Shown: positions 14,798 to 53,697, numbered from the stretch's first letter. The stretch: 54,402 nucleotides of DNA from Myxococcales bacterium FL481 (GCA_006508105.1 QKPP01000286.1:1-54402); one strand, 5' to 3'. The notes: generated from the sequence alone by a model not told the origin. A program made the numbers and translations.

Positions 14798-16026
14798 CGA
14801 CGCCGCTCGAATTCGAGGTCTTCACGCTCTTCCCCGCTGCGGTACAGTCCTTTGCGAGCAGCGGCATTTTAGGGCGAGCGGCTCGGGACGGTCGGGTGGC
14901 GGTGCACACGACCGACTTTCGGCAGTTCACCGACGACCGACACGGCCGAGTCGATGACGCGCCCTTTGGGGGCGGACCGGGCATGACGATTCGAGTGCAG
15001 CCCGTCGCCGCCGCGCTCGCTCACGTGAGCCAACAACGCGGCGCGATGCATCGAGTCTTGCTGACGCCGTCTGCCCCGCGATTCGACCAGCCGACGGCCC
15101 GGCGGTTGGCCGCGCACGATCGCATTGGGTTGTTGTGCGGACGCTACGAGGGCATTGACGACCGAGTGCGCGAGCACTTCGTCGATGAATGTCTGTCGAT
15201 CGGTGACTACGTACTCAACGGCGGTGAGGTCGCCGCGGCCGTGATCATCGAAGCCGTGGCTCGGTTGCGAGAGGGCGTGTTGGGGAATGCCGCTTCGGTG
15301 GAGCACGAGAGCTACGACGCGTCAAACCGGCTCGAACATCCGCAGTACACGAGGCCGGAAGCGTTTGAGGGGTGGCGGGTGCCGGCCGTACTGCTCACCG
15401 GTGACCATGCCGCGATTCATCGTTGGCGTCGGTCCGCTGCGGTTCGGCGAACGTTTGAGCTGCGGCCGGACCTGTTGCCTCCGCTGTCACCCCATGTCAG
15501 TTACGTCGTGCTTCCGCGCGGGGCCTCAGCGGCCAGCGCCCGCGCGTTTCACCGCGTGTCGGGGCTTTGGCAGCCGCAGGGGGATCGGCTGCGCGCTCAC
15601 GCACGCGCCGGAGCTCGCGCGCAGCCCGACAGTCGAGATCTCCGGGATCTGCGTCGGCGAGTGCGTGCTCGCCATGGCGAGGATCCCGTCTGGGTCCGGG
15701 TGCGTCTGGCCGGCGACGCGGCGCACGCCGACGAGGCCACCTCGATTGAGATGTGCCTGACCATGGTTGACGCCAATGGCGGTGCCGGCGCACCCATTGT
15801 GTGGGTGCTCGATGACGACAACGGGGCGCCGGGGCGCCCCCCTCACGGCTTCGCCGCCGTCTTGCGCCCCCGAGCCGGTCCCCGTGGGCCCGGACTTGCA
15901 GATCCGCCAGGGATCGAGCACCCTTCGCCCCCCATCGCGGGCATCCCGGCTCCGGCCGCAAGCATTGAGGCGTTTGCGTCCGAGCTCGCGGCTACGCCAG
16001 CAGCGACGAGCGATTCATTGCCATGA
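14794..16026 (+). CDS. trmD: tRNA (guanine-N1)-methyltransferase TrmD with an unusual ~180-residue C-terminal extension
   Basis: TrmD methylates G37 of tRNAs using SAM. The family core is clear over residues 1-230: [52 protein letters not shown], the [20 protein letters not shown] block, and [20 protein letters not shown]. The total is 410 aa, whereas TrmD is usually about 240-255. The extension (about 231-410) contains a plausible small alpha/beta part ([19 protein letters not shown], then [11 protein letters not shown]) and a Pro/Ala-rich end. Some relatives have a separate RNA-methyltransferase gene after trmD, but I do not see that family's motifs here. The extension overlaps rplS by four bases (ATGA). 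Confidence 0.95.
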
Positions 16027-16421
16027 GCGACAGCACCAAGAAGTTCCCCTCCCTCGCGTCCATCGAAGCCAAGCTAGTGCAGTCCAGTTTCCCGGAGTTT
16101 CGTGCGGGTGACAAGGTGCGCGTACATGTGCGCATCGATGAGGGCGACAAAGAACGCATTCAGGTGTTCGAGGGCGTTTGTATTCACCGGTCTCACCGTG
16201 GTCGTCGGGGTTCGTTCACCGTTCGCAAAGTCTCGCACGGCATCGGCGTGGAGCGAGTCTGGACCGTGAACTCGCCGCGGGTGACGAAGATCGAACTCGT
16301 CTCTCGCGGTGTGGTCCGGCGCGCCAAACTGTATTACCTGCGCGAGCGCAGCGGGAACGCGGCTCGTATTCGCGAGAAAATCGGCGGGTACAAGTCCGCC
16401 AGCGCGACCTCGGCGAGCTAA
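16023..16421 (+). CDS. rplS: 50S ribosomal protein L19
   Basis: A 132-residue L19 with [48 protein letters not shown] and [21 protein letters not shown]19 sits at the 30S-50S interface. It has a slightly long Ser/Ala-rich C-terminus. The start ATG overlaps the trmD stop, so its expression is probably coupled to trmD. Confidence 0.97.
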
Positions 16422-17959: not shown

Positions 17960-19729
17960 ATGAACCGACTTCGACGAAGCTGCCTCCCACTCCTCGTTGC
18001 GCTAGGCCTGACTGCCAGCGTGCCTGTCGCTTCCGCAGCCGCCCCGCCTCCGCCCGGAGCCAAGAAGAAGTCCGACAAGAAGAAGGGGGCCCCTCCACCT
18101 CCCGGCGCCAAGGAGGGTGATGGTGACAAGGGCGACGCAGCCGGCGCGGAAGCGGCGAGCAAGAGCAAGGTCCCGGCGGCCGGCGAAGCCAGCGGGGCCC
18201 AGGACAAGGCGGAAAACGAGGACTACGCCAACGAGAAGTACGACGTGGCGGCAGCGACATTCCACGGAATCGCCACCGGCAAGTCGGGCGGCGACGCTGG
18301 TCGCGCTCAGTTCTGGCTGGGTAAGTCACTCTACAAGCTTGGGTTTTATGCCGCCGCGCTAGCGGCGTTCGACGAGATCGTTCAAGCCGGTTCCGCTCAT
18401 CCCTATCACCAGCCCACCCTTCCCTGGCTCGCCTCGCTGAGTCGGGTGCTGCCCGAGGGCGCAGGCGTGCTGGAGAAGATCGGCACCTACAAACCAGCCG
18501 ACCTCGAGAACGAGGCGTTCGACGAGGTTCGTGACGAGCTCTACTATCTTCTCGGGCGCTTCAACTATCGCAAGGGCGACCTGGGCCAAGCGATCGCTTT
18601 GTTGTCACAGGTACCCGATGCGAGCGACTTCTTCATTCCCGCACAATTCTTCCTCGGCGTGAGCGAAATGCGCGAGATGCGGGCGCCAGAGGCCGTTGAA
18701 GGCTTTCGCAACGTCTTGCGGCGCAACATCCAAGCCCGCGACGAGGCCGAGGCACGCGGTGAGAAACGGAAAAAGAAGCTGAGCGAGCGAGCCCGCAAAA
18801 AGCTCGGCATCTCGCTGGCCGAACTCGAGTTCCGCGAGCAAAACGAGCGGTACGAGGAGACCGCCGCAATCGCCCTCGGCTACATCTACTACCAGCTCGG
18901 GCGCTACGACACCGCAATCACGTACTTCGATCGGGTTCCGCCGGCGTCTCCGTACTGGCTCGATGCTGTGTTCGCATCGGCTTGGTCAGAGTTCATGCTC
19001 GTGCAAGTCGAGCCCGACCACGCGAACCGCCACTACCAGCGCGCGCTCGGGTACGTCCACACGATCAACGCCCCGTTCTTTTACGACTACTTGTACCCCG
19101 AGAGCCTGTTGCTAAAAGCGGTGACCTACTACTTCAACTGCCGCTACGGACCGGCCAAGGGTGCCATCGACGAGTTCAACACCCGATACCTCCAGACCCG
19201 CAAGGATCTCCAGGGCGTGCTAGACGCGGCCCCCGAGGACTACGGCCTGTACGAGCTGACCGTCCAGATCCGCAACGAGAAAGCCAAGCTGGACCCCTTC
19301 GTCCAGCAAGTCGCCCGCAAGTCGATTCAGGACAAGACGCTCGACAAGCACTATCAGTACGTCGAGCGGCTGGAGTACGAAGCGGAGCTACTCAGCAAGC
19401 AGACCAACGGCTTCAAGAACGGCGACGTCGGTGCGTATGTCGATGAGCAACTCGAACTCGTGACGTCGGTCGCAAAAGAGACCACCGGCGGCCTCGCCCG
19501 CCAGCGACTGGCGAAAGCAATCGAGCAGATCGGGAAGCTTCGAACGGACGCCATCAAGGTCCAATACGAGATTATCAACAAACTCAAGGCGCTCGGCGAC
19601 GAGAGTCTCGGCGAGCTGCAAAAACCGTTCGTGGACAGCGAGCACGAGATCTACAACTACAACGGCGAGTACTGGCAAGACGAGTTGGGCTACTACAACT
19701 ACAAAGTGACCAACGTTTGCCCAGAATAG
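17960..19729 (+). CDS. Exported TPR protein, possible GltC/NfsC-like core component
   Basis: A 589-residue protein with a signal peptide (MNRLRRSCLPLLVALGLTAS...VASAAA) and a low-complexity Pro/Lys linker holding two copies of PPPPGAK (about residues 29-50). Helical repeats run from about 85 to 400, for example AQFWLGKSLYKLGFYAAALA and AIALGYIYYQLGRYDTAITYFD, which match TPR consensus. A long helical/coiled segment follows (about 410-555), and the protein ends YNGEYWQDELGYYNYKVTNV. It should be periplasmic. It is the first of three same-strand genes with gaps of 73 and 28 bp. In Myxococcus, GltC is a periplasmic TPR protein working with GltD/E/G; the match here rests on size, signal and context, not on an alignment. 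Confidence 0.75.
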   Translation: MNRLRRSCLPLLVALGLTASVPVASAAAPPPPGAKKKSDKKKGAPPPPGAKEGDGDKGDAAGAEAASKSKVPAAGEASGAQDKAENEDYANEKYDVAAATFHGIATGKSGGDAGRAQFWLGKSLYKLGFYAAALAAFDEIVQAGSAHPYHQPTLPWLASLSRVLPEGAGVLEKIGTYKPADLENEAFDEVRDELYYLLGRFNYRKGDLGQAIALLSQVPDASDFFIPAQFFLGVSEMREMRAPEAVEGFRNVLRRNIQARDEAEARGEKRKKKLSERARKKLGISLAELEFREQNERYEETAAIALGYIYYQLGRYDTAITYFDRVPPASPYWLDAVFASAWSEFMLVQVEPDHANRHYQRALGYVHTINAPFFYDYLYPESLLLKAVTYYFNCRYGPAKGAIDEFNTRYLQTRKDLQGVLDAAPEDYGLYELTVQIRNEKAKLDPFVQQVARKSIQDKTLDKHYQYVERLEYEAELLSKQTNGFKNGDVGAYVDEQLELVTSVAKETTGGLARQRLAKAIEQIGKLRTDAIKVQYEIINKLKALGDESLGELQKPFVDSEHEIYNYNGEYWQDELGYYNYKVTNVCPE

Positions 19730-19802
19730 CTTGAATTCAAAGTGTCCATTCGGCCGACCATCCTTCTACGGCCAGCAGCGACCATCATCAGGCGAGGAAT
19801 CC

Positions 19803-22800
19803 ATGCAGTCGTCGAGTAAGAACACAAGCATCTCTTCAGGCAAGCGAGGAGCGAGCACCATTTGGCGTCTTGCTCGCATCGGCTTGGCGAGCTTTCTGGC
19901 GTTGGCCGCCCCAAGTGCGGGTGCGGCCGAGCCGGACGGCGGAGACGGGAAGAGCGGGGTTCGCTACGAACGCAAGTCGAAGAGGACCAAGGCGAAGTCC
20001 GATCTTCTCGACACGAAGTTCAAAAGCGCGGTGAAAACCTCCAAAAAAGGCAAGGATCGTCCGCCGGAGATGATGAGTGCCCGCGACTTTCGCAAAGAGC
20101 GCGAGGCGGTCGAGCAGAGCATGGCTGATCAACAGATCGCGATGCTCAAGGATCTCATCACCAATGCTCCGGGTGGCGATCCTGAGTTGCCTGACTACCT
20201 GTTCCGGCTCGCAGATCACTACAACGAGAAGCAGCACTACTACTCGCTGCAGGCTGGTGCGTTGTACGAGGGGATCTACGACGCAGAGGAAAAGAAGCAC
20301 AAGTCCAAGGTTCGCCAGCTCAAGCAAAAGCAAAAGCGTTTTCAAAAAGACGCCAAGAAGATGCACGGCGAGTCCGCCAAGGTCTACAAGGCCCTGACGA
20401 ACCAGCCGGCGTTTGCGAACTACAAGCGCATGGACGAGGCGCTGTACCTCTACGCCTACGTGCTCGGCGAGCTCGAGCGCGACAACGAGATGAAGGAGGT
20501 GTTCAAGAAGCTGATCAACAACTATCCCGACAGCAAGTTCATCTCCCACGCGTACCTCGCCTTCGCGGACTACTACTACGACCAGCAGCAGATCCAGCCT
20601 GCCGTCCGCCTGTACGAGAAGGTGCTGCAATTCAAAGACAGCCCGGTCTACGCGTACGCTCTGTACAAGCTGGCGTGGTGTCACCTCAACCCGATCGGAA
20701 CCGCTGAGCCACGTTACGATCTCAGCCTGAACTACTTCGTGGCAACGATTAAGGCCACGCAGGAGGGTCGCGCAGGCAGTGAAGCGGCCGGCAAGCAGCT
20801 TCGTCGCGATGCGCGGCGCGACCTCGTCAAGGCCTATATGTACGCCTCGAAGCCCAGCAAGGCCTGGGAGTTCTTCGGCAAGTGGGGCGTGGGACCGGGC
20901 AAAGAAGAGGACGACGCCCGAAAAATGATGACGCTGCTGGCCGACGCGTACTTCGCCAACGGCATGTACACCGAGTCGACCTTCACCTACAAACGCCTAC
21001 AAGAAGAGTTCGACGGCGACGCCGACACGTGCATGTGGCAGGGCCGGATCGTCATCAACACGCTGGCCACGGACAACAAAGAGGTCCAGTGGAACGAAAC
21101 GCGGCGTCTAGGCGAGTACTGGCTCGAGTACAAAGACGCCAAGCACAAGAAAGCGGTCAAACGAAAGTGTCGCGACGACGCCCTCGCCACCATGAAGCAG
21201 ATGGCGACGGTGTGGCACGACGAGGCGCACAAAACGAATCTGCCGCTCACCTACCAGCTGGCCGAAAAGGCCTACAGCTACTTTCTCGAGGTGTTCCCGA
21301 AGGACAAGGACGCCTACGAGCTGCAGTACTACTATGGCGAGCTGCTTTGGTCGTTGGCGTCAAATCACTACAACTCCAAGGCCGAGTCCGACCGGAACGA
21401 GGGGCTGAAGTATTTTCGAAAGTCCCACGCGGAGTTTGTCAAAGCGCTCGAGCTGAACCCCAAAGGCAAGTTCACGCGAGATGCCGCGCAGGCCCAGATG
21501 CTCGCGATGAAGAACGCACTCGAATACGACGAGACTGGTGGCAAGGCCAAGGCCTGCAAAACGAACTCCGAGGGCGTGTGTACCTATAAGACGGGCAAGA
21601 AGAAGAAGGAGAAGCGCGACAAGGACACCAAGGTGGACGCCGCCGCCCAGTATCCCGAGAGCGACTACACCGATGACGAGAAGCAAATGCTCGCTGCCTA
21701 CGATCGGTACATGAAGTACGTCAACGATCCGAAGGACAAAGAGCTGCCAAAAATCATGTTCCACCGCGCGAACTTGATGATGGTCCACAACAAGTTCGAC
21801 GAGGCGCGGCCGCTCCTTGAAAAAGTGCTGGCGAAATTCGATGGCACCATCTACGGGGCCTGGTGCTCAGAGATGCTGCTCGACCTCCTGACCATCAAGT
21901 GGGTCGACAGCGGGAACACGCCTGAGCAAACGGTCAAAGCGAGCGACGACCTCGAAGAGTGGGCCAACAAGTTCCAAAAGATGAAGGTGTGGACGCACCC
22001 CGAGGCCGACCAGATCCGAGAAGCGGTGCCGCGCCTGCTCGCGGGCATCGGTTGGAAGAAAGGCAAAGCCTACCAGGAGGCCGGAAAAGCCTACTTCGAA
22101 GGTGACCCCAACGGCGACCCGGACGGCTTTCGCAAGTGCATGAACCAGTTCGTCGAGGTCTGGAACGAGTACGAAAACCACGATCAGGCCGACACCCTGC
22201 TTTGGAACGCCGCAGAGTGCGCCGACGCAGCTTACGTGATCGGCGATGCGATCAACATCCGCCAGCAGTTGCTGTCGAACCATCCTGAGAGCAAGCACGC
22301 CAAGCGCACCCTCGAGTACTTGGCCAAGAGTTACCGCTCCGCCGCGATGTTCCAAGAGTCAGCGACGCACTACGAGCAGTACGCGGACAAGTACGAGAAG
22401 GACCCGTTCAGCGAGGAGGCGCTGCAAAACGCCTATCTTTTCCGCTTGGGCCTCGGTGACTCCGAGAAAGCCGCCGAGAACCTGAACAAGTACGAAGCGC
22501 TGTTCAAGCGCAAGAACGTGGCGAAAGCGGCCACGATCTTTTGGTCCCGCCACGCGCTGCTCGACAACGACGAAGAGAAAAAGGAACACGCGATTGCGTA
22601 CCTCAAGACCTATGGCGGAAAAGGTGGCAAAGACCGGCAGGTCGTCGCGGAGGCGGCGGTAGGCCAAGCGCTGTGGCGGCAGTCCTGTCCCAAAGAGCTC
22701 CTCTACGACAGCTGCATCTCCATCGCTCGCAAACGTGCGCTCTCAGCCGCGCAGCAGATTGAGCAGCGCAAGAAGCTCGAGCGCAAACTCAAGAAGAAAG

Positions 22801-23702
22801 GACGCAAGAAGTTTGTCGTCCCTGACCGTTGCGGCGAGCCGACCAAAGGCGTCGTGACCGTGTACAAGCGCGACAAGAAACTCGCGGCTGAGGCTCAGAA
22901 GCGATTCTCCAACGTGCTGCGTCTGGTCGGGAAAGGGAAGATCGCGATCCCGGAAGACGAGCCGAACCGCGCCGAGGCGTTCAAAAACGCTTGGGGCATG
23001 GCGATGGTGTACCGCGCCGACCAAAAGTTCGAGGCTTTCTTGGAGATGAGCATGCCCACGGACCTGTTCTTCGGCGTGGAGCAGTACAAGAAAGACTCTG
23101 GCATCCCTCGTTGGGAGCGCGAGTACGCTGAGCAGGTGAAGAAGGAAGCCGAGAGCAAAAAGAAGCTCGAGGCCTACATGGCGCAGAAGGTGAAGCTGAT
23201 GGCGGAGCTGGCCGAGCAATACGCCGCGGTCAAGGGGACGGGGAGCAAAGCATGGTGGCTGGCTGCCGCCGGCCGAACCGCCGCGACCCACCAGAACTTT
23301 GCCGACGAGTTGTATCGCGCACCGGTTCCGTCTGGCGTGATCAAGACGGAAGAGATGTACGACGTCTACTGCGACCAACTCGCGCAGTACGGCGACCCGC
23401 AGATCTCTCGCGCCGTCGAGGCCTACACGGCCTGCATCGAGGCCTCCACCAAGAACAAGTACTTCAACGAGTTCTCACGGATGTGCGAAGACGAGATGCA
23501 GCAGACCGACGCCGACAGATACCCGGCCACCAATGAGGCATTCGGCCAGTCAACCTACACGACTAGTCGTATCGCCCACGTGGGCGTCTACAGCGATCCG
23601 ACCGGAGGTAGCGCGCTGGCGAAGCAGACGCGAAGAAAGAAGGGCAAGTCGGGCGACTCCGAGGACTCGGCCGCCGACGACGATGCGGGCGAGGAAGAAT
23701 AG
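19803..23702 (+). CDS. Large exported TPR protein, possible GltD/AgmU-like
   Basis: A 1299-residue protein. The ATG before QSSSKNTS has a strong GAGGAA Shine-Dalgarno. A signal peptide (WRLARIGLASFLALAAPSAG) directs it to the periplasm. Most of the mature part is TPR-like helical hairpins, for example DEALYLYAYVLGELERDNEM, ISHAYLAFADYYYDQQQIQP, VYAYALYKLAWCHLNP and AYKSYFLEVF-type helices. Lys/Glu-rich stretches lie around 610-640 and 985-1015, with an acidic C-terminal tail. M. xanthus AgmU/GltD is likewise a signal-bearing TPR protein of about 1200 residues, encoded just before AglT/GltE. The neighbour here (next gene, 28 bp on) is an AglT-like lipoprotein, supporting the assignment by context. 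Confidence 0.8.
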   Translation: MQSSSKNTSISSGKRGASTIWRLARIGLASFLALAAPSAGAAEPDGGDGKSGVRYERKSKRTKAKSDLLDTKFKSAVKTSKKGKDRPPEMMSARDFRKEREAVEQSMADQQIAMLKDLITNAPGGDPELPDYLFRLADHYNEKQHYYSLQAGALYEGIYDAEEKKHKSKVRQLKQKQKRFQKDAKKMHGESAKVYKALTNQPAFANYKRMDEALYLYAYVLGELERDNEMKEVFKKLINNYPDSKFISHAYLAFADYYYDQQQIQPAVRLYEKVLQFKDSPVYAYALYKLAWCHLNPIGTAEPRYDLSLNYFVATIKATQEGRAGSEAAGKQLRRDARRDLVKAYMYASKPSKAWEFFGKWGVGPGKEEDDARKMMTLLADAYFANGMYTESTFTYKRLQEEFDGDADTCMWQGRIVINTLATDNKEVQWNETRRLGEYWLEYKDAKHKKAVKRKCRDDALATMKQMATVWHDEAHKTNLPLTYQLAEKAYSYFLEVFPKDKDAYELQYYYGELLWSLASNHYNSKAESDRNEGLKYFRKSHAEFVKALELNPKGKFTRDAAQAQMLAMKNALEYDETGGKAKACKTNSEGVCTYKTGKKKKEKRDKDTKVDAAAQYPESDYTDDEKQMLAAYDRYMKYVNDPKDKELPKIMFHRANLMMVHNKFDEARPLLEKVLAKFDGTIYGAWCSEMLLDLLTIKWVDSGNTPEQTVKASDDLEEWANKFQKMKVWTHPEADQIREAVPRLLAGIGWKKGKAYQEAGKAYFEGDPNGDPDGFRKCMNQFVEVWNEYENHDQADTLLWNAAECADAAYVIGDAINIRQQLLSNHPESKHAKRTLEYLAKSYRSAAMFQESATHYEQYADKYEKDPFSEEALQNAYLFRLGLGDSEKAAENLNKYEALFKRKNVAKAATIFWSRHALLDNDEEKKEHAIAYLKTYGGKGGKDRQVVAEAAVGQALWRQSCPKELLYDSCISIARKRALSAAQQIEQRKKLERKLKKKGRKKFVVPDRCGEPTKGVVTVYKRDKKLAAEAQKRFSNVLRLVGKGKIAIPEDEPNRAEAFKNAWGMAMVYRADQKFEAFLEMSMPTDLFFGVEQYKKDSGIPRWEREYAEQVKKEAESKKKLEAYMAQKVKLMAELAEQYAAVKGTGSKAWWLAAAGRTAATHQNFADELYRAPVPSGVIKTEEMYDVYCDQLAQYGDPQISRAVEAYTACIEASTKNKYFNEFSRMCEDEMQQTDADRYPATNEAFGQSTYTTSRIAHVGVYSDPTGGSALAKQTRRKKGKSGDSEDSAADDDAGEEE

Positions 23703-23730
23703 GCGTACGGGCGTTCAGAGGAAAAGCACG

Positions 23731-25296
23731 ATGAAGACCTACCAAGCACTATTCAGCACGCTGGCGCTTTGCGGACTCATGAGCGGCTGCGCCGGCTCAG
23801 GCGGTGGCGCGGCCGGAAAGACCGCCGCGCCGGGATCCAAGCTCAAGCCGGAGGACCGAGGCAATCGCGAATCACCATCGGACGCGGCAAAGAAGGCCTT
23901 TGCGAAGGCGGTGGCGTCGTACAAGTCCGCGGGTGGAGGAGACACGGGGGTGTCGAAAGGGGATTGCGCCTCCGTGGCAGGAAAATTCACCAAGGTCTAC
24001 GAGAAGTTCGGCGACCAAATGGTGATCGCCCGTTTCAACGCGGCCGCAACTTGGGAAGAGTGCGGCGACACGTCCAAGGCGCGCGACATCTACAAAGAGC
24101 TGGTAAAGGCGAAGTACTGGCCCGCCTACAACAATCTTGGCGTGCTGTACTGGAACGAAGGCAACACGAGCAAGGCGCTCGAGTACTTCGAGAAGGCGAC
24201 GCAGGCGGACCGCGCCCACGCAACGGACGCTCGCAACAACTTGGCCGTTGCCCACCGTGACAAGTACGCTGACAAGCCAACCTCGAGCGACTTCAACCAA
24301 GCGCAAAAACAACTGCGTAGCGTGTTGGTCGTCGAGACCTGGAACAAGAAGGCCTACGAAAACCTTGCCCGCCTCTATTACGATCGAGGTCGCCTCGAAG
24401 AGCGGTCGTATCTCGTCCTGTCGGACCTCGTTGTGCAGCAAGCGCTGCGAGTGCTACGCGAGCACAACGAGGAGAGTGCCGAGCTGTGGAACTTGCGGGG
24501 CCTCTTGTACCTGGCGCGTGAGAACAATCAGGTCGAGGCCTATCGCGCTTTTCAGAAGGCCGTGGAGATCGACCCGCAACACGTCGACGGCAATCTCAAC
24601 ATCGCGTTCATTTCGATCCGGTTTCGAGACTACGAGCAAGCCGAGAAGAGCCTGGCCATCGCCCTGAAGGACAAAGCGCAGAAACGCAACGCCGAGGCCC
24701 ACCTGGCCATGGGCGTGGCCAAGCGTGGGGTCAAGAAGTACAAAGAGGCCGAGAAGTACTACAACAAGGCGATCAAGCTCGCCGCGGACGATCCGCGCGG
24801 GCACTTCAACCTCGGCATCTTGCACCAAGAGCACATGGTCGCGGCCGACGATGTGGGGCCAAAAGAAATCGAGGCCCTCTACAACACCGCGAAAAAACAC
24901 TACAACAAGTCGATTTCGGTCGCCGGGTCAGACAAGGACTACGCCGACGGTGTAACCGACGCGAAAGAGCGCGTGGTGGTGATCGACGACGCGATCGAGA
25001 CCTTCCGCGTCATGGAAGAGTTGGAGAAGCAGGCGAAGGCCCTCGAGAAGCAAGCGGCTGAGGAAGCCGCGAAGGAGCGCAAGCGCCTGCTGGAACTCGA
25101 GGAGAAGGCGCTTGCGGCCGAGGCGGAAGAGGAAGCCGCGACCGAGAAAGCGGCCAAGGCCTCCAAGGAGGCCAGCGGCTCCGCCGCCAAGGAAGACAAG
25201 AAGAAGCCGACCGACAAGAAGTCGGCGGACAAGAAGTCGGCGGACAAGAAAACCGCGGCCAAGAAAACCGCGGCCAAGAAGACCAAGAAGAAGTAG
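23731..25296 (+). CDS. TPR lipoprotein, possible GltE/AglT-like, with Lys-rich tail
   Basis: A 521-residue protein. The start MKTYQALFSTLALCGLMSGC has a clear lipobox (LMSGC), so it should be lipidated and, lacking an obvious retention signal, may sit in the outer membrane. TPRs fill about residues 90-400 (AYNNLGVLYWNEGNTSKALE, ELWNLRGLLYLARENNQVEA, AHLAMGVAKRGVKKYKEAEK). A long charged coiled coil follows (about 430-480), ending in 5-residue Lys repeats (DKKSA, DKKTA, AKKTA). AglT/GltE of Myxococcus is an outer-membrane TPR lipoprotein next to AgmU; size and order fit. It is the last gene before a good intrinsic terminator. Confidence 0.8.
   Translation: MKTYQALFSTLALCGLMSGCAGSGGGAAGKTAAPGSKLKPEDRGNRESPSDAAKKAFAKAVASYKSAGGGDTGVSKGDCASVAGKFTKVYEKFGDQMVIARFNAAATWEECGDTSKARDIYKELVKAKYWPAYNNLGVLYWNEGNTSKALEYFEKATQADRAHATDARNNLAVAHRDKYADKPTSSDFNQAQKQLRSVLVVETWNKKAYENLARLYYDRGRLEERSYLVLSDLVVQQALRVLREHNEESAELWNLRGLLYLARENNQVEAYRAFQKAVEIDPQHVDGNLNIAFISIRFRDYEQAEKSLAIALKDKAQKRNAEAHLAMGVAKRGVKKYKEAEKYYNKAIKLAADDPRGHFNLGILHQEHMVAADDVGPKEIEALYNTAKKHYNKSISVAGSDKDYADGVTDAKERVVVIDDAIETFRVMEELEKQAKALEKQAAEEAAKERKRLLELEEKALAAEAEEEAATEKAAKASKEASGSAAKEDKKKPTDKKSADKKSADKKTAAKKTAAKKTKKK
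25213..25287 (+). repeat. 15-bp tandem repeats encoding the Lys-rich tail
   Basis: Two copies of gacaagaagtcggcg (25213, 25228) are followed by gacaagaaaaccgcg (25243) and gccaagaaaaccgcg (25258), plus a partial copy. The array encodes [DA]-K-K-[ST]-A pentads at the protein C-terminus. Confidence 0.85.
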
Positions 25297-25317
25297 CCGA
25301 GCGGGCCCCGGCGACAG

Positions 25318-25358
25318 CGGCGACAGCGACCGATCAGGGCGCTGCCGCCGTTTTGTTT
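25318..25358 (+). terminator. Intrinsic terminator after the three-gene TPR operon
   Basis: Stem arms cggcgacagcg and cgctgccgccg (11 bp, one A.C mismatch) enclose an 11-base loop and are followed by TTTTGTTT. It lies 21 bases after the lipoprotein stop. Confidence 0.8.
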
Positions 25359-25714
25359 GGTTGTCCGTCACTCGCCCCCGACGCGAGAGCGAAGAGTCAG
25401 CGCAGCGAGCCCGAAAAACCCGCCCGGCCCTGGCCAAGCTGGCCTCACTGGCCGAGCTGGCCACGCTGGGGACCCGCACGCGCCCACCAGGGCGGACCGG
25501 CGGGTGCGTTCACGCGGGGGTGGTGGGATGTCACAGACATCCCCGGCCAACGAGGCGACCGCGGCGCTCGATCTCCGTAGCTGACTAGTTGAGCGCGCGC
25601 CACAACGCTGGCTCGGGAGCGTGAGATCTCCCGGGCCGCGAAGGCCCGGATCCAGATGCGCCGACAACACCCCGTCAACCACCCTAGGCGCCGCCCAATC
25701 GCAGACGCTCGGCC

Positions 25715-25743
25715 TTTACACGCACCGAGACAGCATGTACCGT
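25715..25743 (+). promoter_or_regulatory. Possible promoter for the small exported protein/FHA gene pair
   Basis: TTTACA (5 of 6), 17 bases, TACCGT (3 of 6), about 69 bases upstream of the next start codon and downstream of a terminator. Confidence 0.4.
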
Positions 25744-25811
25744 CTTCGCTCGCCGCTGTGCCCCCGGGCCGTTCACTGGCACGGTCGGTCGGCGCGAGGA
25801 GTGCACGTACG

Positions 25812-26099
25812 ATGAAACGCAAGCTGCCCACTGTCATGCTCATCACGGGGATTGCGCTGCTGGCTCCGCAAGCGGCCCACGCCTTTGCACCCGCGCCGCA
25901 GGACGCGGATGAGGCCGCATTCAAGGGCGAGCAGGGCGGAGCGACGGTGTACGACTTCGAGGACGACAACGTAGACGGCGAGATCCTCCGCCCCGAGGGC
26001 GCCTTGATCAACTCTCGGGCAGGTACGCGCCACGCATCCCTCATCACGCTTCGGCGTCACTTCATTCCGGAACTGATCCGGATGGCAGAAGACATTTAG
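25812..26099 (+). CDS. Small exported protein, possible GltF-like
   Basis: A 95-residue protein: a signal peptide (MKRKLPTVMLITGIALLAPQ, cleavage after AHA) and a mature part of about 70 residues containing ATVYDFEDDNVDGEILRPEG and then HASLITLRRHFIPELIRMAE. The acidic 'Y-x-F-E-D-D-x-[VL]-x-G-[ED]' element recurs, from memory, in small proteins near myxobacterial gliding genes. The position between an AglT-like and an FHA/AgmX-like gene matches GltF in the Myxococcus gltD-E-F-G order. The family is weakly characterised and the assignment is by context. Confidence 0.65.
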   Translation: MKRKLPTVMLITGIALLAPQAAHAFAPAPQDADEAAFKGEQGGATVYDFEDDNVDGEILRPEGALINSRAGTRHASLITLRRHFIPELIRMAEDI

Positions 26100-26200
26100 C
26101 GCGCGTTGCGCTGCCCCGTGCGGCAAAAAAGTCGCGGGGTTGGGAACTCGCCCGCGTCAACAATGTCTGACCGGCAAGCGGCCCACGACAAGGACTCAGC

Positions 26201-28471
26201 ATGGCCACCACAGTGCTCAACGTACACATCTACTGCAACGGCGAATACGTCGAGACCAAGACCTTGTCGCAAGAGGTCATCAAGATCGGCAAGCTCAAGA
26301 GCGCCCACATCTGTCTAGAGGACGATGCCGTGGCACGCATGCACGCCGTCATCGAGACGACGGCGAACGACGTTCGGCTGATCGATCTTGGTACCGCCGC
26401 CGGGACGGTCTTGAACGGACAGCGTGTCGACAAGAACGCACCGCTAGCCTCCGGAGACGTTCTGTCGTTCGGCCCGTACGCGCTGAAGGTGGAGATGGCC
26501 GTCGCCCCCGCGGCAGAGGTGGCGCCGGCCGCTGGTGTCGCGGCGACGCAGCCCGCTCCGCCTCCTGCGAGTGCTCAGATGCCGGCTGCTCCCCAGCAGC
26601 CAGTTCCGGCGGCGCAGCCCGTCGCGGCGACCCAGGTGGCGCCGGCCGGCTTCGCTCCGCCGCCCGCCGCCGCGGCACCAGTGGCCGCGGCCCCCGTGGC
26701 CGCGGCACCAGTGGCCGCCGCACCGCTAGCGGCGACCGCCGCGGTCGCGGCACCGGTCGCGGCCCCGCCAGCCGGCTACGGTGGTCAGCCGAGCAACGTA
26801 GACGTGTCATCAGTCGAGAGCCCCGACAAGCGAGTCGCTGAGGTCGTGGCGATGTACGGCTCGACCGCGCTGGACGTGACCCACGTCGGACAAGTCGCCT
26901 CGAGCAAGGGGTCCGGCCCGGTGTTGCTCGGACTCGGTGCCGTGTTGTTTCTCGGCGGGGCCGGCTTGTTCGGCTACGAACAGTCACGCGACTGGGAGAC
27001 CTACAAAAAGGCGGAGATCGCTGCTCGACAAGAGGGGCTTCCGCTCCCAAAGGAGCCGGGAATGGGTACCGGCGCGCTGGGTCTGAGCATCGCGTTGCTT
27101 GGACTCGCGCCGCTCATTTTAGGCGGCATGCGAGTGCGCGAGCGGGTGGTTGACGCCTACACCATCGGCGAAGGTCACGACACGATCTTCCATGTACCGA
27201 CGCAAGGATTGCCCGATCCGGTGGCGTTTCCGTTGGTCGCTGGCGGTGGGAGTGGCGATTTCAGCCTGTCGTTCACGCGTGAGATGACCGGCGACGTAGC
27301 CCTCGATGGTCAGCGAATCTCCTTGCAGGACCTCGTCGCTTCGGGACGCGCGGCCGGATCAGGCAACTCGTTCTCGTTCCCGTTGCCGCACGGCGTCAGC
27401 TGCCGAGTTCGGCATGGCGACATCACATTTCACATCAACACCGTCAATGCCGGTGCCATCGTGGCGAACCGTGGTGAAACGGACTGGCCGTTCTTCGCCT
27501 ACGCCGGAGGCACCGCGACCGTCGCGGTCGCGCTGTACACGTTGATGCGCATGATTCCCGACAACATCCTCGCGTTCGACTTCGACGAGGATCTCGGCGA
27601 AAACCGCTTCGTGGGGTACATGAATCAGCCCGACGAGGTGAAAGAGGAAGAGCCGCCGCCCGAGACAGAGAACGAGGACGACGAGGAAGCCGGCGGAACG
27701 GGTCAGCGTCACAAGGGTGAAGAAGGCAAAATGGGCAAGCCGACGAGCAAGAACAAAGCCGGCTTGTACGCGATGAAGGGGCCCAAGGATGCGATTCCAC
27801 AGATGGCCCGCAACTTCGATCCAGATATGACCGCTCGCCAGGCGGGCATCCTGGGCGTGCTGTCCGCGCAAAGCGGACACTTCCTTGCCTCGCCTTTCGG
27901 CGGTGCGTTCGCAGTGGGTAACGACGATGAAGACGTCTGGGGCGGCCTGACCGGCACAGAGATCGGCGAGGCCTACGGCGTCGGCGGTCTCGGCCTGGTC
28001 GGAACCGGACGTGGCGGCGGTGGTACGGGCGAAGGAACCATCGGCCTGGGGAACACCGGCCTGATCGGCAAGGGCGGCGGCGGCGGTACCGGTTCGGGCT
28101 ACGGTCGCGGATCCGGGGCCGGCTTCGGCGGCAAAGGTAAGCGAGTTCCGCGTGTCCGGCAGGCGAAGGCCAAGGTCCAAGGTGCGCTCGACAAGAACAT
28201 CATTCGTCGAATCGTTCGTGCGCACATCAACGAGGTCACGGCTTGCTACAACCAGGGCCTGAGCCGAAACCCCAACCTCGCAGGTCGTGTGGCGGTGAAC
28301 TTCGTGATCACCGGAACTGGCAAGGTGGGGTCCTCGGTGGTCCAGCAAAGCTCGCTCAAGGACCGCAACGTGGCGAACTGCATCGCTAAGGCGGTCAAGC
28401 GCTGGAAGTTCCCGCGTCCGAAGGGCGGCGGAAACGTCATCGTGACCTATCCATTCAACTTGAGCACCTAG
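26201..28471 (+). CDS. FHA-domain membrane protein with AgmX/PglI (TonB-like) C-terminal domain, GltG-like
   Basis: A 756-residue inner-membrane protein. The N-terminal FHA domain (about 1-100) has IKIGKLKSAHICLEDDAVA, then RMHAVIE and DLGTAAGTVLNGQRVDK. An Ala/Pro linker follows (102-195, with AAPVA repeats). Hydrophobic helices lie at about 239-259, 290-310 and 430-450, an acidic stretch at 478-497 and a Gly-rich linker at 590-645. The C-terminal domain (about 660-756: LDKNIIRRIVRAHINEVTAC, then NLAGRVAVNFVITGTGKV and NCIAKAVKRWKFPRPKG) is the AgmX/PglI tail, TonB-like, with the two conserved cysteines at 682 and 727. GltG/PglI of Myxococcus combines FHA, membrane helix and this tail, linking motor and periplasm. 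An alternative is a paralogue from an Nfs- or energy-transducing system. Confidence 0.88.
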   Translation: MATTVLNVHIYCNGEYVETKTLSQEVIKIGKLKSAHICLEDDAVARMHAVIETTANDVRLIDLGTAAGTVLNGQRVDKNAPLASGDVLSFGPYALKVEMAVAPAAEVAPAAGVAATQPAPPPASAQMPAAPQQPVPAAQPVAATQVAPAGFAPPPAAAAPVAAAPVAAAPVAAAPLAATAAVAAPVAAPPAGYGGQPSNVDVSSVESPDKRVAEVVAMYGSTALDVTHVGQVASSKGSGPVLLGLGAVLFLGGAGLFGYEQSRDWETYKKAEIAARQEGLPLPKEPGMGTGALGLSIALLGLAPLILGGMRVRERVVDAYTIGEGHDTIFHVPTQGLPDPVAFPLVAGGGSGDFSLSFTREMTGDVALDGQRISLQDLVASGRAAGSGNSFSFPLPHGVSCRVRHGDITFHINTVNAGAIVANRGETDWPFFAYAGGTATVAVALYTLMRMIPDNILAFDFDEDLGENRFVGYMNQPDEVKEEEPPPETENEDDEEAGGTGQRHKGEEGKMGKPTSKNKAGLYAMKGPKDAIPQMARNFDPDMTARQAGILGVLSAQSGHFLASPFGGAFAVGNDDEDVWGGLTGTEIGEAYGVGGLGLVGTGRGGGGTGEGTIGLGNTGLIGKGGGGGTGSGYGRGSGAGFGGKGKRVPRVRQAKAKVQGALDKNIIRRIVRAHINEVTACYNQGLSRNPNLAGRVAVNFVITGTGKVGSSVVQQSSLKDRNVANCIAKAVKRWKFPRPKGGGNVIVTYPFNLST
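26675..26734 (+). repeat. 15-bp tandem repeats encoding the Ala/Pro/Val linker
   Basis: Four consecutive units related to gcaccagtggccgcg encode APVAA-type pentads in the cytoplasmic linker between the FHA domain and the first membrane helix. Confidence 0.8.
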
Positions 28472-28816: not shown

Positions 28817-29725
28817 ATGCGACGAGTTCTTGCTGCTGTGGTTGTCGCCACTCCTTTGCTGTTTTCTTCGCTGGCTTGCAATCTGACAAGTCAGTCCCGC
28901 GTGGATTCGATCCACCGAATGAACGAAGGGATCAAACAGCTCAAAAAAGGAAACTACTCTGGCGCGGAGATGGGCCTCAAGGAGGCGATTCAGCTCGATC
29001 CCTCCCACGGACTCGCGCACTCCAATCTTGGCAAGCTCTACCGCAAGCAAGGGAAGTGGGCGGATGCAGCCGCCGCCTACCAGGCCGCCATCGCCAACAT
29101 GACCGAGTCGCCAAACGCCAGCTTCCACTACGAGCTGGGGATTGTGACCGCCGCGCAGGGCGACGCTCCGGGGACGGCTCTGTCGGAGCGCGACTCAAAA
29201 TACCGAGCGGCGATCACTTCTTATCAAGAAGCGCTCAAGCTGAATCCCAAACTCTACAAGGCGCACTACCGAGCCGGCGTCCTGCACGAGAGGCTCGACG
29301 AACCCAAAAAGGCCGACGCTGCTTATCGCTCGGCGATTGGACTGAACGCCAAGTATAGCTCTTCGTTCGTGTCGCTCGGGAACATGTACATCGATTATGG
29401 CTTCGCCAACGTGGCCATGGCGGTGCTCGATACCGGGGTGAAAGTCAACGATACGGACGCCGCGATGTGGAACGGACTCGGGCGTGCGTACCTTTCGCTC
29501 AAGCAGGCTCCTAAAGCCATCGACGCCTTCAAGAAAGCGCACGCGATCGATCCCGACATGCCCGACGTCCTCTTCGGTCTCGGCATGGCGCACGCAGAAC
29601 TGCGCCAGAAGGTCGAAGCCACCAAGAATCTCGAGGCCTTTCTCAAGAAGGCGTCCGCTGGCGTTCCCGAGGACACCCAGAAGGCCGCGCGCGACACACT
29701 CGCGCGGATGCAGGACGTGATCTAA
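28817..29725 (+). CDS. TPR lipoprotein (302 aa)
   Basis: The start ATG follows GAAAGGTCCTCCG. The N-terminus MRRVLAAVVVATPLLFSSLAC ends in a good lipobox (SLAC). The mature protein is almost all TPR: GIKQLKKGNYSGAEMGLKEA, AHSNLGKLYRKQGKWADAAA, KAHYRAGVLHERLDEPKKAD, MWNGLGRAYLSLKQAPKAID. It resembles PilF/NrfG-type assembly lipoproteins in architecture. It lies between the GltG-like gene and the giant TPR gene on the same strand, with its own promoter. It is probably an outer-membrane or periplasmic assembly factor; its partner is not known. Confidence 0.8.
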   Translation: MRRVLAAVVVATPLLFSSLACNLTSQSRVDSIHRMNEGIKQLKKGNYSGAEMGLKEAIQLDPSHGLAHSNLGKLYRKQGKWADAAAAYQAAIANMTESPNASFHYELGIVTAAQGDAPGTALSERDSKYRAAITSYQEALKLNPKLYKAHYRAGVLHERLDEPKKADAAYRSAIGLNAKYSSSFVSLGNMYIDYGFANVAMAVLDTGVKVNDTDAAMWNGLGRAYLSLKQAPKAIDAFKKAHAIDPDMPDVLFGLGMAHAELRQKVEATKNLEAFLKKASAGVPEDTQKAARDTLARMQDVI

Positions 29726-30891
29726 AATCGCGTCCGGTTTGCGGCCGTGGGACCGAGCGCTGCACGGCCAGCGAGTGTTCTGGCATCAGCGTGAGCTGCA
29801 CGAGGGAGCACCGTTTCGTGGCGAGTGCGCCGATGTGGCGGAGGGTCCGTGGGGTTCGGGGTGAGCTCGCCGGCCGCGGCGATGGCCCCGACGGCTCTGC
29901 GGATCGCTTCCTCGCAGCGGAGCCCGGCACGATCTACGCGGTTCATCGCGTCGAGACACCGCGACGGAAAACCCGACAAGGGTGCTGACACGCGTTGTCG
30001 CGTCACGCTGGGGCCGTGCGACGCTCAGACCAACCGGCGGGTGGGCTCCGTGTCAGTCGCACGCGAGACCACCGCGGCTGGCACCACCGGCGAGCGACCG
30101 CGTCGGCCGACGCCCGCGGCCGGTACCGGCACGGGCGGGTGACTGGACCATCGTGCCGAGGACTCACGAAGGCGCACGCGATCTGTGTTGGAGGCAGCCG
30201 CAAGCCGAGAAATTGGGCCAACGCGACGGCTGACCGCCATGGCAAAGACTCGCGCTCAGCCGGAGGACCGCTCGGCGCCGCGGTGGATGAGGTCGTTCAG
30301 GTTGAGTTGCACGACTGAGTGAACCCGTACGGTTGGTCGCCGCGTCGCGCCGTGCCGCGCCGCTCGGTGAGCCACCGGCTCGAAGGCCAGATCCATCATG
30401 TGCAAGAGAGCGGATCGCGTGGGCACAGCGGCTCGGTGCTGCGGCAGCGCAGATCGCCCGCGGTGCCTTCTCGGGAGCGGCCGGCGTAGGCCGGTAAAGG
30501 CATGGTCGATTCCGCTCGAGTGGTGCAAACTCCTCGTCAGCGCGTCGGGCCCGAGAAGATGGCCTGGCGCTCCGGAGAGTCGCCGGGTCCTCCGGCGCGG
30601 TCGCACTAGGGCTGAAACGTCACGCGGGCCAGTGCCGAGTCGCGATCGATGGGGTGTTCGTCGTGGCACATCGCGCCGAGCAACGGCCCCGCCAAGTCCG
30701 TCTTCATCTCGTGCGGTCCGGCGTCGAGCCAGTGATGAACGCAGCACACGCGGCTCGCGGGGCGAGACGGCCAGACGGCGAAATCGGGCCTTCGTTGGTC
30801 GGCGACTACATTTACGGAGCCGAGTTTCGCGTGCTATATCCGACCGGCCAATTCTCGCGCGTACGCCCGCAATCTCGGCAATAGAGGCCAG
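29726..30891 (+). other. 1.17-kb gene-free region upstream of the giant TPR gene
   Basis: No believable coding frame on either strand; a 240-codon minus frame overlapping the giant gene's start is Arg-rich and looks like an antisense shadow. A 7-bp hairpin (GGCCGTG/CACGGCC, 29741-29767) lies just after the lipoprotein stop without a T-run. The right end holds the promoter at 30811-30840. The rest shows nothing I can name. Confidence 0.5.
30811..30840 (+). promoter_or_regulatory. Probable promoter of the giant TPR gene
   Basis: TTTACG, 18-base spacer, TATATC (each 4 of 6), about 52 bases upstream of the start codon; AGAGG precedes the ATG. Confidence 0.45.
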
Positions 30892-42543
<11,652 letters not shown>

Positions 42544-50645: not shown

Positions 50646-51376
50646 CGCTTTGGCTCCTCGGCGGCATCGACCCCACGGGGGGCGCGGGCCTGTGGCGAGA
50701 CAGTTGGGCCGCGCAGGTGTTCGCGCCGGACCTGAGAATCCGCGCGGTGGTGACCGCCTGGACGTGGCAAGGTCGGGGCCAGCGCGCGCGCGCTCAGGGG
50801 GCGGACCTGGCACATTTTCGCGCCAATTGTCACGGCCTGGCCGACGCGCAGGCCGTCAAGATCGGTTTGCTGCCGTCCGCGGTCGCGGTCACGCTCGCCG
50901 CGATGCACCACGGCGCCCGACCGTGGGTCGTCGACCCGGTGCTCGGTGCCACCTCGGGCGGGACGTTCGACGTATCGATGGCGGCCCTGGTGGCGCTGCG
51001 GCGAGATCGCGTGGTCTTCACGCCGAACCAAGCGGAGGCGCAAGCGCTCCTGGGAACCGGCGCGGAGCTCTCCACGTCGCAGCTGCACGCCTTGGCGCGC
51101 CAGCTGTCGCCTTCGCCGGTGCTGGTTAAAAGCGCCCGGCAAGACACGACCTCCGTCGCCGACGTCCTGATCGCGGGTCACAGTGAGCGGTGGTTCGTGC
51201 GATCGCGTCAGCCGGGACCGGATCCGCGGGGCACGGGTTGTGCGCTCTCCACCGCCATCGCAGCTGGGCTCGCACACGGTCGCTCACTCGTCGCCAGTAT
51301 CGACGCCGCAACAAAGTGGCTGGACGGTCGGCGTACTCAGTTAAGGAACGTGGGCGGGGGCCACCACTTCCGGTGA
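50642..51376 (+). CDS. ThiD-like phosphomethylpyrimidine/ribokinase-family kinase
   Basis: A 244-residue kinase that starts inside the cyclophilin stop (ATGA overlap). It shows the ThiD/PdxK pattern: GGIDPTGGAGLWRDSWAAQV, QAVKIGLLPSAVAV, RPWVVDPVLGATSGGTFD, VVFTPNQAEAQALLG and the anion-hole block DPRGTGCALSTAIAAGLAHG with the GTGC catalytic region. ThiD phosphorylates hydroxymethylpyrimidine (and HMP-phosphate) for thiamine synthesis. No other thi gene is nearby and several positions are divergent, so substrate assignment is uncertain. The end overlaps the convergent LRR gene by 36 bp. Confidence 0.8.
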   Translation: MTLWLLGGIDPTGGAGLWRDSWAAQVFAPDLRIRAVVTAWTWQGRGQRARAQGADLAHFRANCHGLADAQAVKIGLLPSAVAVTLAAMHHGARPWVVDPVLGATSGGTFDVSMAALVALRRDRVVFTPNQAEAQALLGTGAELSTSQLHALARQLSPSPVLVKSARQDTTSVADVLIAGHSERWFVRSRQPGPDPRGTGCALSTAIAAGLAHGRSLVASIDAATKWLDGRRTQLRNVGGGHHFR

Positions 51377-53275
51377 TTCGGCCCCGGGCGCCGTGCTTGC
51401 GGTGGGATGCAAGCGCGTGCCGCTGAGGTCGATGGCCACGAGCTTGGGGAGCGAGGCGAGGGTCGGGGCCGCGGCCTCGGACACGACCGTGCCGGCGAGG
51501 TTGAGACGCTCGAGCTCATGCAGTGAGCGGAGGTGCTCCACGCCGGTGTCGGTCACGAGCGTGTGGTCTAGCCGGAGCTCTCGCAGGCCCGATAGACCGG
51601 CGAGATGCTGCACCCCTTCGTCGACGACGTCGGTGTGATCGAGCTCGAGCACCTGCAGGTTCGTCAGGCCCGCGACATGGGCGAGTCCCGTGTTGGTCAC
51701 TCGCGTGTGATGCAGACGCAGCGTCTGCAGGCCGACGAGGCCGGCGACCGCACGTAATCCGGCATCGGTGATGCGCGTACCTCCCAAGTCGAGTTCTCGC
51801 AGTCGCGTGAGATTCGACAGATGCTGCGCATGCTTGTCGGTGAAGTCCGGGGCATCGAACTCCAGCACCTCGAGGTGCGCGAGGCGGTTGAGATCGGCGA
51901 TATTCGGGGTGGCGAGCTCAACTCGTTCGAGCCGGAGACGGCGAAGGTGAGCGAGCTCGGCCAAGGCGGTGAACATCGAGCCCCCCACGGGAGCGTGGGT
52001 CACCCGCAACTCCTCGAGATGCTCGAGTCGCGCGAGGTGCTCCCAGCCCGCGAGGGAGATGTTCGGTTGTCGCAGATCGAGTTGGCGCAGATTGGCGAGC
52101 AGCCGAAAATGGCGCAGGCCGGCGTCACCGAGCCGTGGGCAGGCACAGATGACCCGCTCGAGGGGGAGGTGGCGCAAGTAGAGCGGACTGTGGTCGTTGA
52201 ACCTCCCGCTCTCCCAGTGCAAGCGCCGCAGCTTCTCGAGCGGCTTGACGAGATTGAGACCGTAGTTCCCGACCGCGGCATCGCGCACCGTCAGTGATTC
52301 GAGGTGACGCGACTCGGACACGGCCTGCATCGTCGAGTAGCGGATCCATCGGCCTTCCAGCTCGAGCTCGACGAGTTGCCGGCTGTCGGAGATGAGGTCC
52401 GTAAGTGGCGTGTCGCGCTCCAGCTCGCGCAAGGTCAAACGCTGTAGGGCGAGTTGTCGTGCCAGTGCTTTGACGCTGACCTCTGGCGCTTGCACCCGCG
52501 TCAGGGAGAGTGCGGACAAGTGGGGGAGTGTCGTGAGGGCCTGCGCAACTCGCCGGTCGATCTGGATGTCGACCAGCTCAAGTTCGAGCAGCGTGCCCGC
52601 GAACGTGGTGACCAACTCCAGCACCAAGGCATCACAAGAGGCCAATCGGATGCGACGAACGCGGGGCATGGCCTGCGCGAGCTCGACCGGACTCGGTAGC
52701 CCGCAAAGCGCGTCGTCGGTGGCATCGGGCCGTACGACGGCGAGCGGCCCCGGTCCGAGCTCGAGATGCTCGACGTCCATGTAGTCGCGGTAGCGCGCGA
52801 GATCGGAGCGGTGACGCACGGCGAGTCGGCTTGGGGCGCGGGCTCGTGCGGCGTGCGGCGGGGCTTGTTCGGGGGGCACCTCGGGGCGGTCGGGGCGTGC
52901 CAATCGCGGGCCCGCGTCGTAGTCGTCCGCGATCTCGAACGCTTCGATCGGCGGGGCGTCATCTCCACAGCGGGGCCCCGTGCAGGCCGACGGCGAAGCG
53001 ACGGTGAGCAAAGCCAGCGCCCAACGGCGTGCGTGTCTTGCGATGTCCGGGCGCCTCGCCTGCTCGTGCGCGATGAAGCCGAGGGCAAGCCCGCTCTCCC
53101 CCGGAGACGGGGGCAGACGCGATCTCCGTGTCGCTGGAGTCAGGACCCGGCTCGAGAGTGCGGCGAGTGGCGTGCGGACGGTTCCAACCGCGATCTTGCC
53201 GTCGCGATCGGTCGGCGTGCCGGTGGCTTCGCGGGGCGAGAAACCTAAGCGTGAGCGCATGACACGAAGGCGCAT
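51341..53275 (-). CDS. Leucine-rich-repeat protein, probably membrane-anchored or lipoprotein
   Basis: About 644 residues from the ATG before RLRVMRS; the start is uncertain (another ATG at 53260, and the frame opens to 53401). A hydrophobic segment ending SPSAC (WALALLTVASPSAC, residues about 82-96) could be an uncleaved anchor or lipoprotein signal, oddly far from any start codon. The rest is LRR: about 17 units, the last ones with a 24-residue period of the form L-x-x-L-x-x-L-x-L-x-x-T-x-[IV]-T-D-x-G (LRELDLGGTRITDAGLRAVA, LQTLRLHHTRVTNTGLAHVA). This resembles GALA/RI-type LRRs used in protein binding. It has no catalytic domain. Confidence 0.75.
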   Translation of the reverse strand: MRLRVMRSRLGFSPREATGTPTDRDGKIAVGTVRTPLAALSSRVLTPATRRSRLPPSPGESGLALGFIAHEQARRPDIARHARRWALALLTVASPSACTGPRCGDDAPPIEAFEIADDYDAGPRLARPDRPEVPPEQAPPHAARARAPSRLAVRHRSDLARYRDYMDVEHLELGPGPLAVVRPDATDDALCGLPSPVELAQAMPRVRRIRLASCDALVLELVTTFAGTLLELELVDIQIDRRVAQALTTLPHLSALSLTRVQAPEVSVKALARQLALQRLTLRELERDTPLTDLISDSRQLVELELEGRWIRYSTMQAVSESRHLESLTVRDAAVGNYGLNLVKPLEKLRRLHWESGRFNDHSPLYLRHLPLERVICACPRLGDAGLRHFRLLANLRQLDLRQPNISLAGWEHLARLEHLEELRVTHAPVGGSMFTALAELAHLRRLRLERVELATPNIADLNRLAHLEVLEFDAPDFTDKHAQHLSNLTRLRELDLGGTRITDAGLRAVAGLVGLQTLRLHHTRVTNTGLAHVAGLTNLQVLELDHTDVVDEGVQHLAGLSGLRELRLDHTLVTDTGVEHLRSLHELERLNLAGTVVSEAAAPTLASLPKLVAIDLSGTRLHPTASTAPGAESPEVVAPAHVP

Positions 53276-53697
53276 CTTAGACCCGCGCGAGTGCGCGGTG
53301 TGAGGTCCACGCCGCGAACCTCCACTTTGTCGACGAGCTGGGGCTGCCCGATGAGTTGGAGCGACGCTGAGGACCGGGTTCGTCGACCACCCCACCCCCA
53401 CCCCATCGCCAACGCTTCGAGGCGGGTGCTGAGCGGCCGATGACGGCTCCCATCACGGCTCGGGGCGGCGGCCGGGTCGGAACAGATAAATGCGGCGAAA
53501 ACGGCGCGCTTCGACGGCGAAAAACGCGGGGGTCGAGGCTGGAGGGCGGACATGTGGGCAGGTCGGTCTCCCGTGCGGTGCCGGCGTGAGACGCTCGCGA
53601 ACCCCAGAATTCGCGCGAATTTCTCACACTGTGCGCGATCTGGGCGGCGTAGCAAGCGCGTGCCAGAAGGGCTCGGTCTCGCTCTTGGATCGCGCCT
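53276..53697. other. Intergenic region with a G-quadruplex-like tract
   Basis: About 420 bp upstream of the LRR gene (leftward) and of the small gene (rightward). It holds the C-rich tract at 53387-53404. No gene was found. Confidence 0.5.
53387..53404 (-). other. G-quadruplex-forming tract on the minus strand
   Basis: Plus strand CC-A-CCCC-A-CCCCC-A-CCCC; on the minus strand GGGG-T-GGGGG-T-GGGG-T-GG. It lies about 112 bases upstream of the LRR start on that gene's coding strand. Confidence 0.5.

Follow-up and report, generated by a model that had tools for sequence, protein, structure and literature searches.

A Glt-type gene cluster in Myxococcales bacterium FL481, most likely the Nannocystaceae form of a gliding complex

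The locus described here encodes the Nannocystaceae version of Glt, a trans-envelope complex, and most likely belongs to a gliding machine. It is a system of a known type, and FL481 is one more carrier of it, glt carriage in Plesiocystis having been reported in 2011. The evidence lies in the identities, order, domains and conservation of the genes, and in the presence of further parts elsewhere in the genome. In this manuscript, we use the term window for the whole stretch of DNA analysed (54,402 nucleotides; GCA_006508105.1, QKPP01000286.1:1-54402). The host assembly is a Nannocystaceae draft of 6.45 Mb in 322 contigs (93% complete, 5% contaminated).

Genes of the locus

Five co-directional genes occupy positions 17960-28471 of the plus strand; they are real, and lie at the coordinates given in a first-pass annotation (Table 1). 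That annotation had likened them to the Glt/Nfs core, and the likeness holds, as NCBIfam models name GltC, GltE, CglF and GltG, with GltD following by synteny. Its account of the extent of the locus was correct for these five, but it left out two genes, those for a TPR lipoprotein and a giant TPR protein, with which the block continues and which are conserved with the others. Start codons were picked by inspection, and membrane segments were predicted by a hydropathy scan only.

Table 1. Features of the Glt-type locus and its upstream neighbor
Feature	Coordinates	Strand	Size (aa)	Basis
rplS (ribosomal protein L19), external to the machine	16023..16421	+		read from sequence
gltC homologue, exported TPR protein	17960..19729	+	589	NCBIfam gliding_GltC 2.2e-65, residues 61-587
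gltD (AgmU) homologue, exported TPR protein	19803..23702	+	1299	TPR_6 4e-13; slot between gltC and gltE
gltE (AglT) homologue, TPR protein	23731..25296	+	521	NCBIfam gliding_GltE 1.1e-20, residues 14-450
gltF (CglF) homologue, small exported protein	25812..26099	+	95	NCBIfam gliding_CglF 4.2e-14
gltG (PglI) homologue, FHA + membrane segments + TonB-like tail	26201..28471	+	756	NCBIfam GltG 1.0e-99
TPR lipoprotein, gltG-gltI interval (agmV slot)	28817..29725	+	302	conserved slot, Cys21, predicted TPR superhelix
GltI (AgmK)-like giant TPR protein	30892..42543	+	3883	ORF, TPR-type matches, slot

The GltC homologue begins with a signal-like hydrophobic stretch (residues 8-26). For gltD, whose reading frame is open from TTG 19731, none of NCBIfam's gliding models matched, and the gene is assigned from synteny and conservation, as related loci also have it flanked by gltC and gltE. 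The GltE homologue has a lipobox-like N-terminus (LMSGC). CglF is another name for GltF (PMC4488436); 16 positions of this small protein are invariant among 17 aligned homologues, and its predicted structure is poor (pLDDT 63). Paralogues of the TPR proteins also occur: gltD is duplicated in tandem within one related locus (L235/L088), and the host genome carries a distant GltC/GltD paralogue pair on contig C60 (L069:2180-8067) and a separate GltD paralogue on contig C24 (L070:5111-7627).

All four named proteins score below the NCBIfam equivalog cut-offs (222 bits against 450 for GltC, 74 against 225 for GltE, 52 against 90 for CglF, and 335 against 650 for GltG). These cut-offs are tuned to M. 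xanthus. The host does not reach them, and almost every other genome searched in the phylum falls short as well; that for GltG is exceeded by none of the phylum genomes sampled. A strict equivalog label is thereby excluded, but homology is not.

In domain architecture, Pfam supports the TPR repeats and the FHA domain noted in the first-pass annotation (FHA of GltG, 1.7e-14), while the TonB_C-like end of GltG falls slightly short of the Pfam cut-off (22.0 bits, cut-off 24.6). The annotation had also read GltG as an FHA protein with an AgmX/PglI-type tail, a reading staked on how the tail would group; the tail matches NF033768 (myxo_SS_tail) at 114 bits, with a cut-off of 40, and the reading was thus not refuted. 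The FHA motif itself differs by lineage: Nannocystaceae GltG proteins with a readable motif all have Ala or Gly (VARMHA, IGRMHA) at a position where Ser (VSRMHA) is kept in all other lineages sampled. In FHA domains this Ser normally contacts the phosphate of phosphothreonine, and phosphothreonine binding by the Nannocystaceae domain may therefore be weakened; the family-wide change calls phosphothreonine reading there into question.

Several additional GltG proteins were seen. Nannocystis and relatives have a second one that scores nearly as well (~870-900) and has no glt genes within 10 kb (isolated copies at L184, L186, L187, L192, L193, L197 and L199), and gltG occurs as a tandem duplicate at three Nannocystaceae loci (L177, L178 and L203). 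The host itself encodes a GltG-like protein with an AgmX/PglI tail on contig C95 (L027:17001-18641), in which the FHA region is apparently cut down to its first strands.

The giant protein at the downstream end has neither a signal nor a membrane segment in the hydropathy scan. By its size, TPR domain, slot and lack of a signal it is GltI/AgmK-like; M. xanthus GltI is a 4132-residue TPR protein that also lacks a signal (PMC3169522).

Conservation and comparison with known systems

Nannocystis, Plesiocystis and Enhygromyxa share the seven-gene order gltC-D-E-F-G-lipoprotein-gltI, which turns up in further families and classes as well; this recurrence excludes a chance origin. To annotate the loci of named and other genomes, we built a profile for each gene. 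The named loci were chosen by GltG similarity; loci from different searches partly covered the same genomes, and known duplicates were removed before counting. Genes in these loci were called by a simple script, so that gene ends are approximate. Of the 36 core loci for which 3 kb or more of downstream sequence was available, 33 have gltI after gltG, and the same number have the TPR lipoprotein in the intervening slot (32 by script, plus L228, where the gene overlaps the gltG frame); given the choice by GltG similarity, these fractions describe that set and are no unbiased survey. Within the phylum, 192 of 237 genomes have GltC, and each of 59 relatives has a GltG-family match. The nearest named loci are from Nannocystaceae (e.g., Nannocystis, Plesiocystis, Enhygromyxa, Paraliomyxa), and in a GltD tree the window sequence groups within this family, with Plesiocystis and Enhygromyxa. 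The genes rplS, trmD and a yraN-like gene are conserved upstream neighbors; rplS and the yraN-like gene precede gltC in several related loci, and these neighbors are seen 5' of gltC in other families as well.

The locus is thus the standard Nannocystaceae version, and largely what would be expected, as the arrangement is conserved throughout the family and in much of the phylum. The first-pass annotation had called the setting non-canonical, which must be reversed: Nannocystaceae as a rule have this order followed by gltI, as do many other lineages of the phylum. Plesiocystis, Haliangium and Sorangium were already named as glt carriers by Luciano et al. (2011), and the Plesiocystis pacifica system treated there belongs to the same family and has the same gene order (L175), differing from the present one in lineage only.

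The best-known relative is the M. xanthus Glt system (gltA-K in clusters G1 and G2, with the AglRQS motor), the parts of which are spread over three loci (PMC3169522). Shared with it are the gltD-E-F-G order, the TPR protein GltC, a GltG of the FHA-membrane-TonB-like type, a giant TPR gltI following, and GltJ-like and GltB/GltA-like proteins, which are here encoded elsewhere in the genome. Unlike in M. xanthus, gltC adjoins gltD-G, gltJ lies apart from gltI, the gltG-gltI interval holds a TPR lipoprotein gene and no gltH, and GltG has additional predicted membrane segments together with the Ser-to-Ala change in its FHA motif. The seven-gene block, often beside rplS/yraN, is the usual arrangement in Nannocystaceae and is also seen in other classes of the phylum, so that the split loci of M. 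xanthus seem exceptional. According to Luciano et al., GltH was gained late, so its absence from the gltG-gltI interval bars the label of an M. xanthus-type G1 cluster, but not that of a Glt-type machine.

The core of gammaproteobacteria, Geobacter and Fibrobacter combines gltC, D, E and G with aglRQS in one region (PMC3169522). C, D, E and G are shared with the present locus, which differs in that gltF and gltI are present and motor genes are not adjacent.

Distant parts, probable mechanism and alternatives

The first-pass annotation correctly saw none of the AglRQS, GltH or GltJ genes within the window, and a search of the genome found GltJ-like and GltA/B-like proteins and TolQ/TolR-type triads on other contigs. 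The GltJ-like protein (contig C250) has a zinc ribbon, a GYF domain (GYF_2 2.5e-18) and a TonB-like tail; it matches NCBIfam GltJ at 2.8e-37 (below the cut-off). Matches at 6e-9 and 5e-8 were also obtained to the zinc-ribbon and GYF domains of M. xanthus AgmX, the structures of which are solved (PDB 7z3c, 7zok). Of 29 family genomes, the GltJ model matches only 3 at E<=1e-15, which marks GltJ as diverged or patchy in the family. Contig C135 carries tandem outer-membrane barrels of the OMP_myx_plus type, a pair that appears GltB/GltA-like.

Two ExbB-ExbD-ExbD triads are present, on contigs C88 and C279, and for either one identity with the Agl motor is putative. The C88 triad, whose ExbB has 69-80% identity across sampled Nannocystaceae, is the better motor candidate, but it too has a TonB-like gene upstream. 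The C279 triad (L028:1-5303) was dropped as the leading AglRQS candidate because a TonB-dependent receptor gene follows it and relatives have a TonB gene directly upstream. Blocks of the C279 type with the upstream TonB gene are conserved in Nannocystaceae. A further set, on contig C305, is TolQ-TolR-TolA-like by gene order.

If the M. xanthus model is carried over, from which we infer the physical complex, its link to a motor and its gliding function, GltI would act as a cytoplasmic scaffold, inside the cell together with the FHA end of GltG. GltG would span the inner membrane, with its TonB-like tail reaching the periplasm, where GltC, GltD, GltE, GltF and the TPR lipoprotein may form a bridge to outer-membrane barrels, presumably the GltB/GltA-like pair encoded elsewhere. 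A proton-driven ExbB-ExbD-ExbD motor, also encoded elsewhere, would power the complex via GltG, and the periplasmic and outer-membrane proteins would pass the force to the cell surface. In M. xanthus, AglR contacts GltG (PMC3858216), and GltI with GltG links the motor to the cytoskeleton (PMC13104615).

The same genes might instead be an ancestral core with a general role in the envelope or in polysaccharide transport, like G4 and G5 of M. xanthus or the gammaproteobacterial core, and without a part in gliding. This would agree with the phylum-wide conservation and with the M. xanthus extra copies G4 and G5, which have no motility phenotype (PMC3169522). We consider it unlikely, however, since gltF and a gltI-like gene are part of the locus, GltJ- and GltA/B-like proteins are encoded in the genome, and GltF, GltI, GltJ and GltA/B are among the additions that turned the core into a motility machine (Luciano et al.); moreover, apart from that of the glt block, the host genome has no full-length GltC match, and so no second such locus. 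The first-pass suggestion of an ancestral or repurposed core is mostly not upheld, and nothing points to repurposing.

We give far less weight to the idea that this lineage uses the locus for sporulation, as a machine of the Nfs type, although gltC is joined to gltD-G in a single cluster, as is the paralogous C-G core of the M. xanthus spore coat system (nfsA-H), and in contrast to the M. xanthus glt genes, which are split (PMC3858216). Nfs lacks paralogues of GltI, GltJ and GltK (PMC3858216), whereas this locus contains a GltI-like gene and a GltJ-like one is present elsewhere in the genome; gene content therefore favors a machine of the Glt type over one of the Nfs type, and the locus is also common to many other lineages of the phylum. 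It would be most surprising if an unrelated TPR/TonB envelope system merely resembled Glt here: TPR repeats are generic, and comparing the fold of the TPR lipoprotein gives no guidance, but the long GltC and GltG profile matches, the GltF match, the tail far above its cut-off and the fixed gene order all argue against it.

The TPR lipoprotein and the rest of the window

The gene between gltG and gltI encodes a protein with a hydrophobic leader followed by Cys21, a residue that does not vary in an alignment of 25 homologues. The protein is modelled by AlphaFold2 as a TPR superhelix (pLDDT 92.8), and a fold search with it returned generic TPR proteins only. Its slot corresponds to that of M. xanthus agmV (MXAN_4864/65), which was set aside by Luciano et al. 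(2011) as likely a pseudogene or probably not a gene; the MXAN_4865 product has since been detected by mass spectrometry in outer-membrane vesicles, with CglB and AgmO (PMC4158809). We tentatively suggest, at somewhat less than even odds, that the lipoprotein is an unrecognized structural part of Glt and corresponds to AgmV of M. xanthus. If so, it would help to tether the TPR proteins of the periplasm to the outer membrane. An overlooked lipoprotein gene in the agmV slot offers a directly testable lead.

Downstream of this gene, a gap of 1,166 bases (29726-30891) precedes gltI, compared with ~270 bases in Nannocystis, and contains neither a convincing gene nor an Rfam match. The Rfam search returned two tRNAs and nothing else. 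Further on, at 51341-53401 of the minus strand, the window encodes a 686-residue protein that carries leucine-rich repeats close to the C-terminus.
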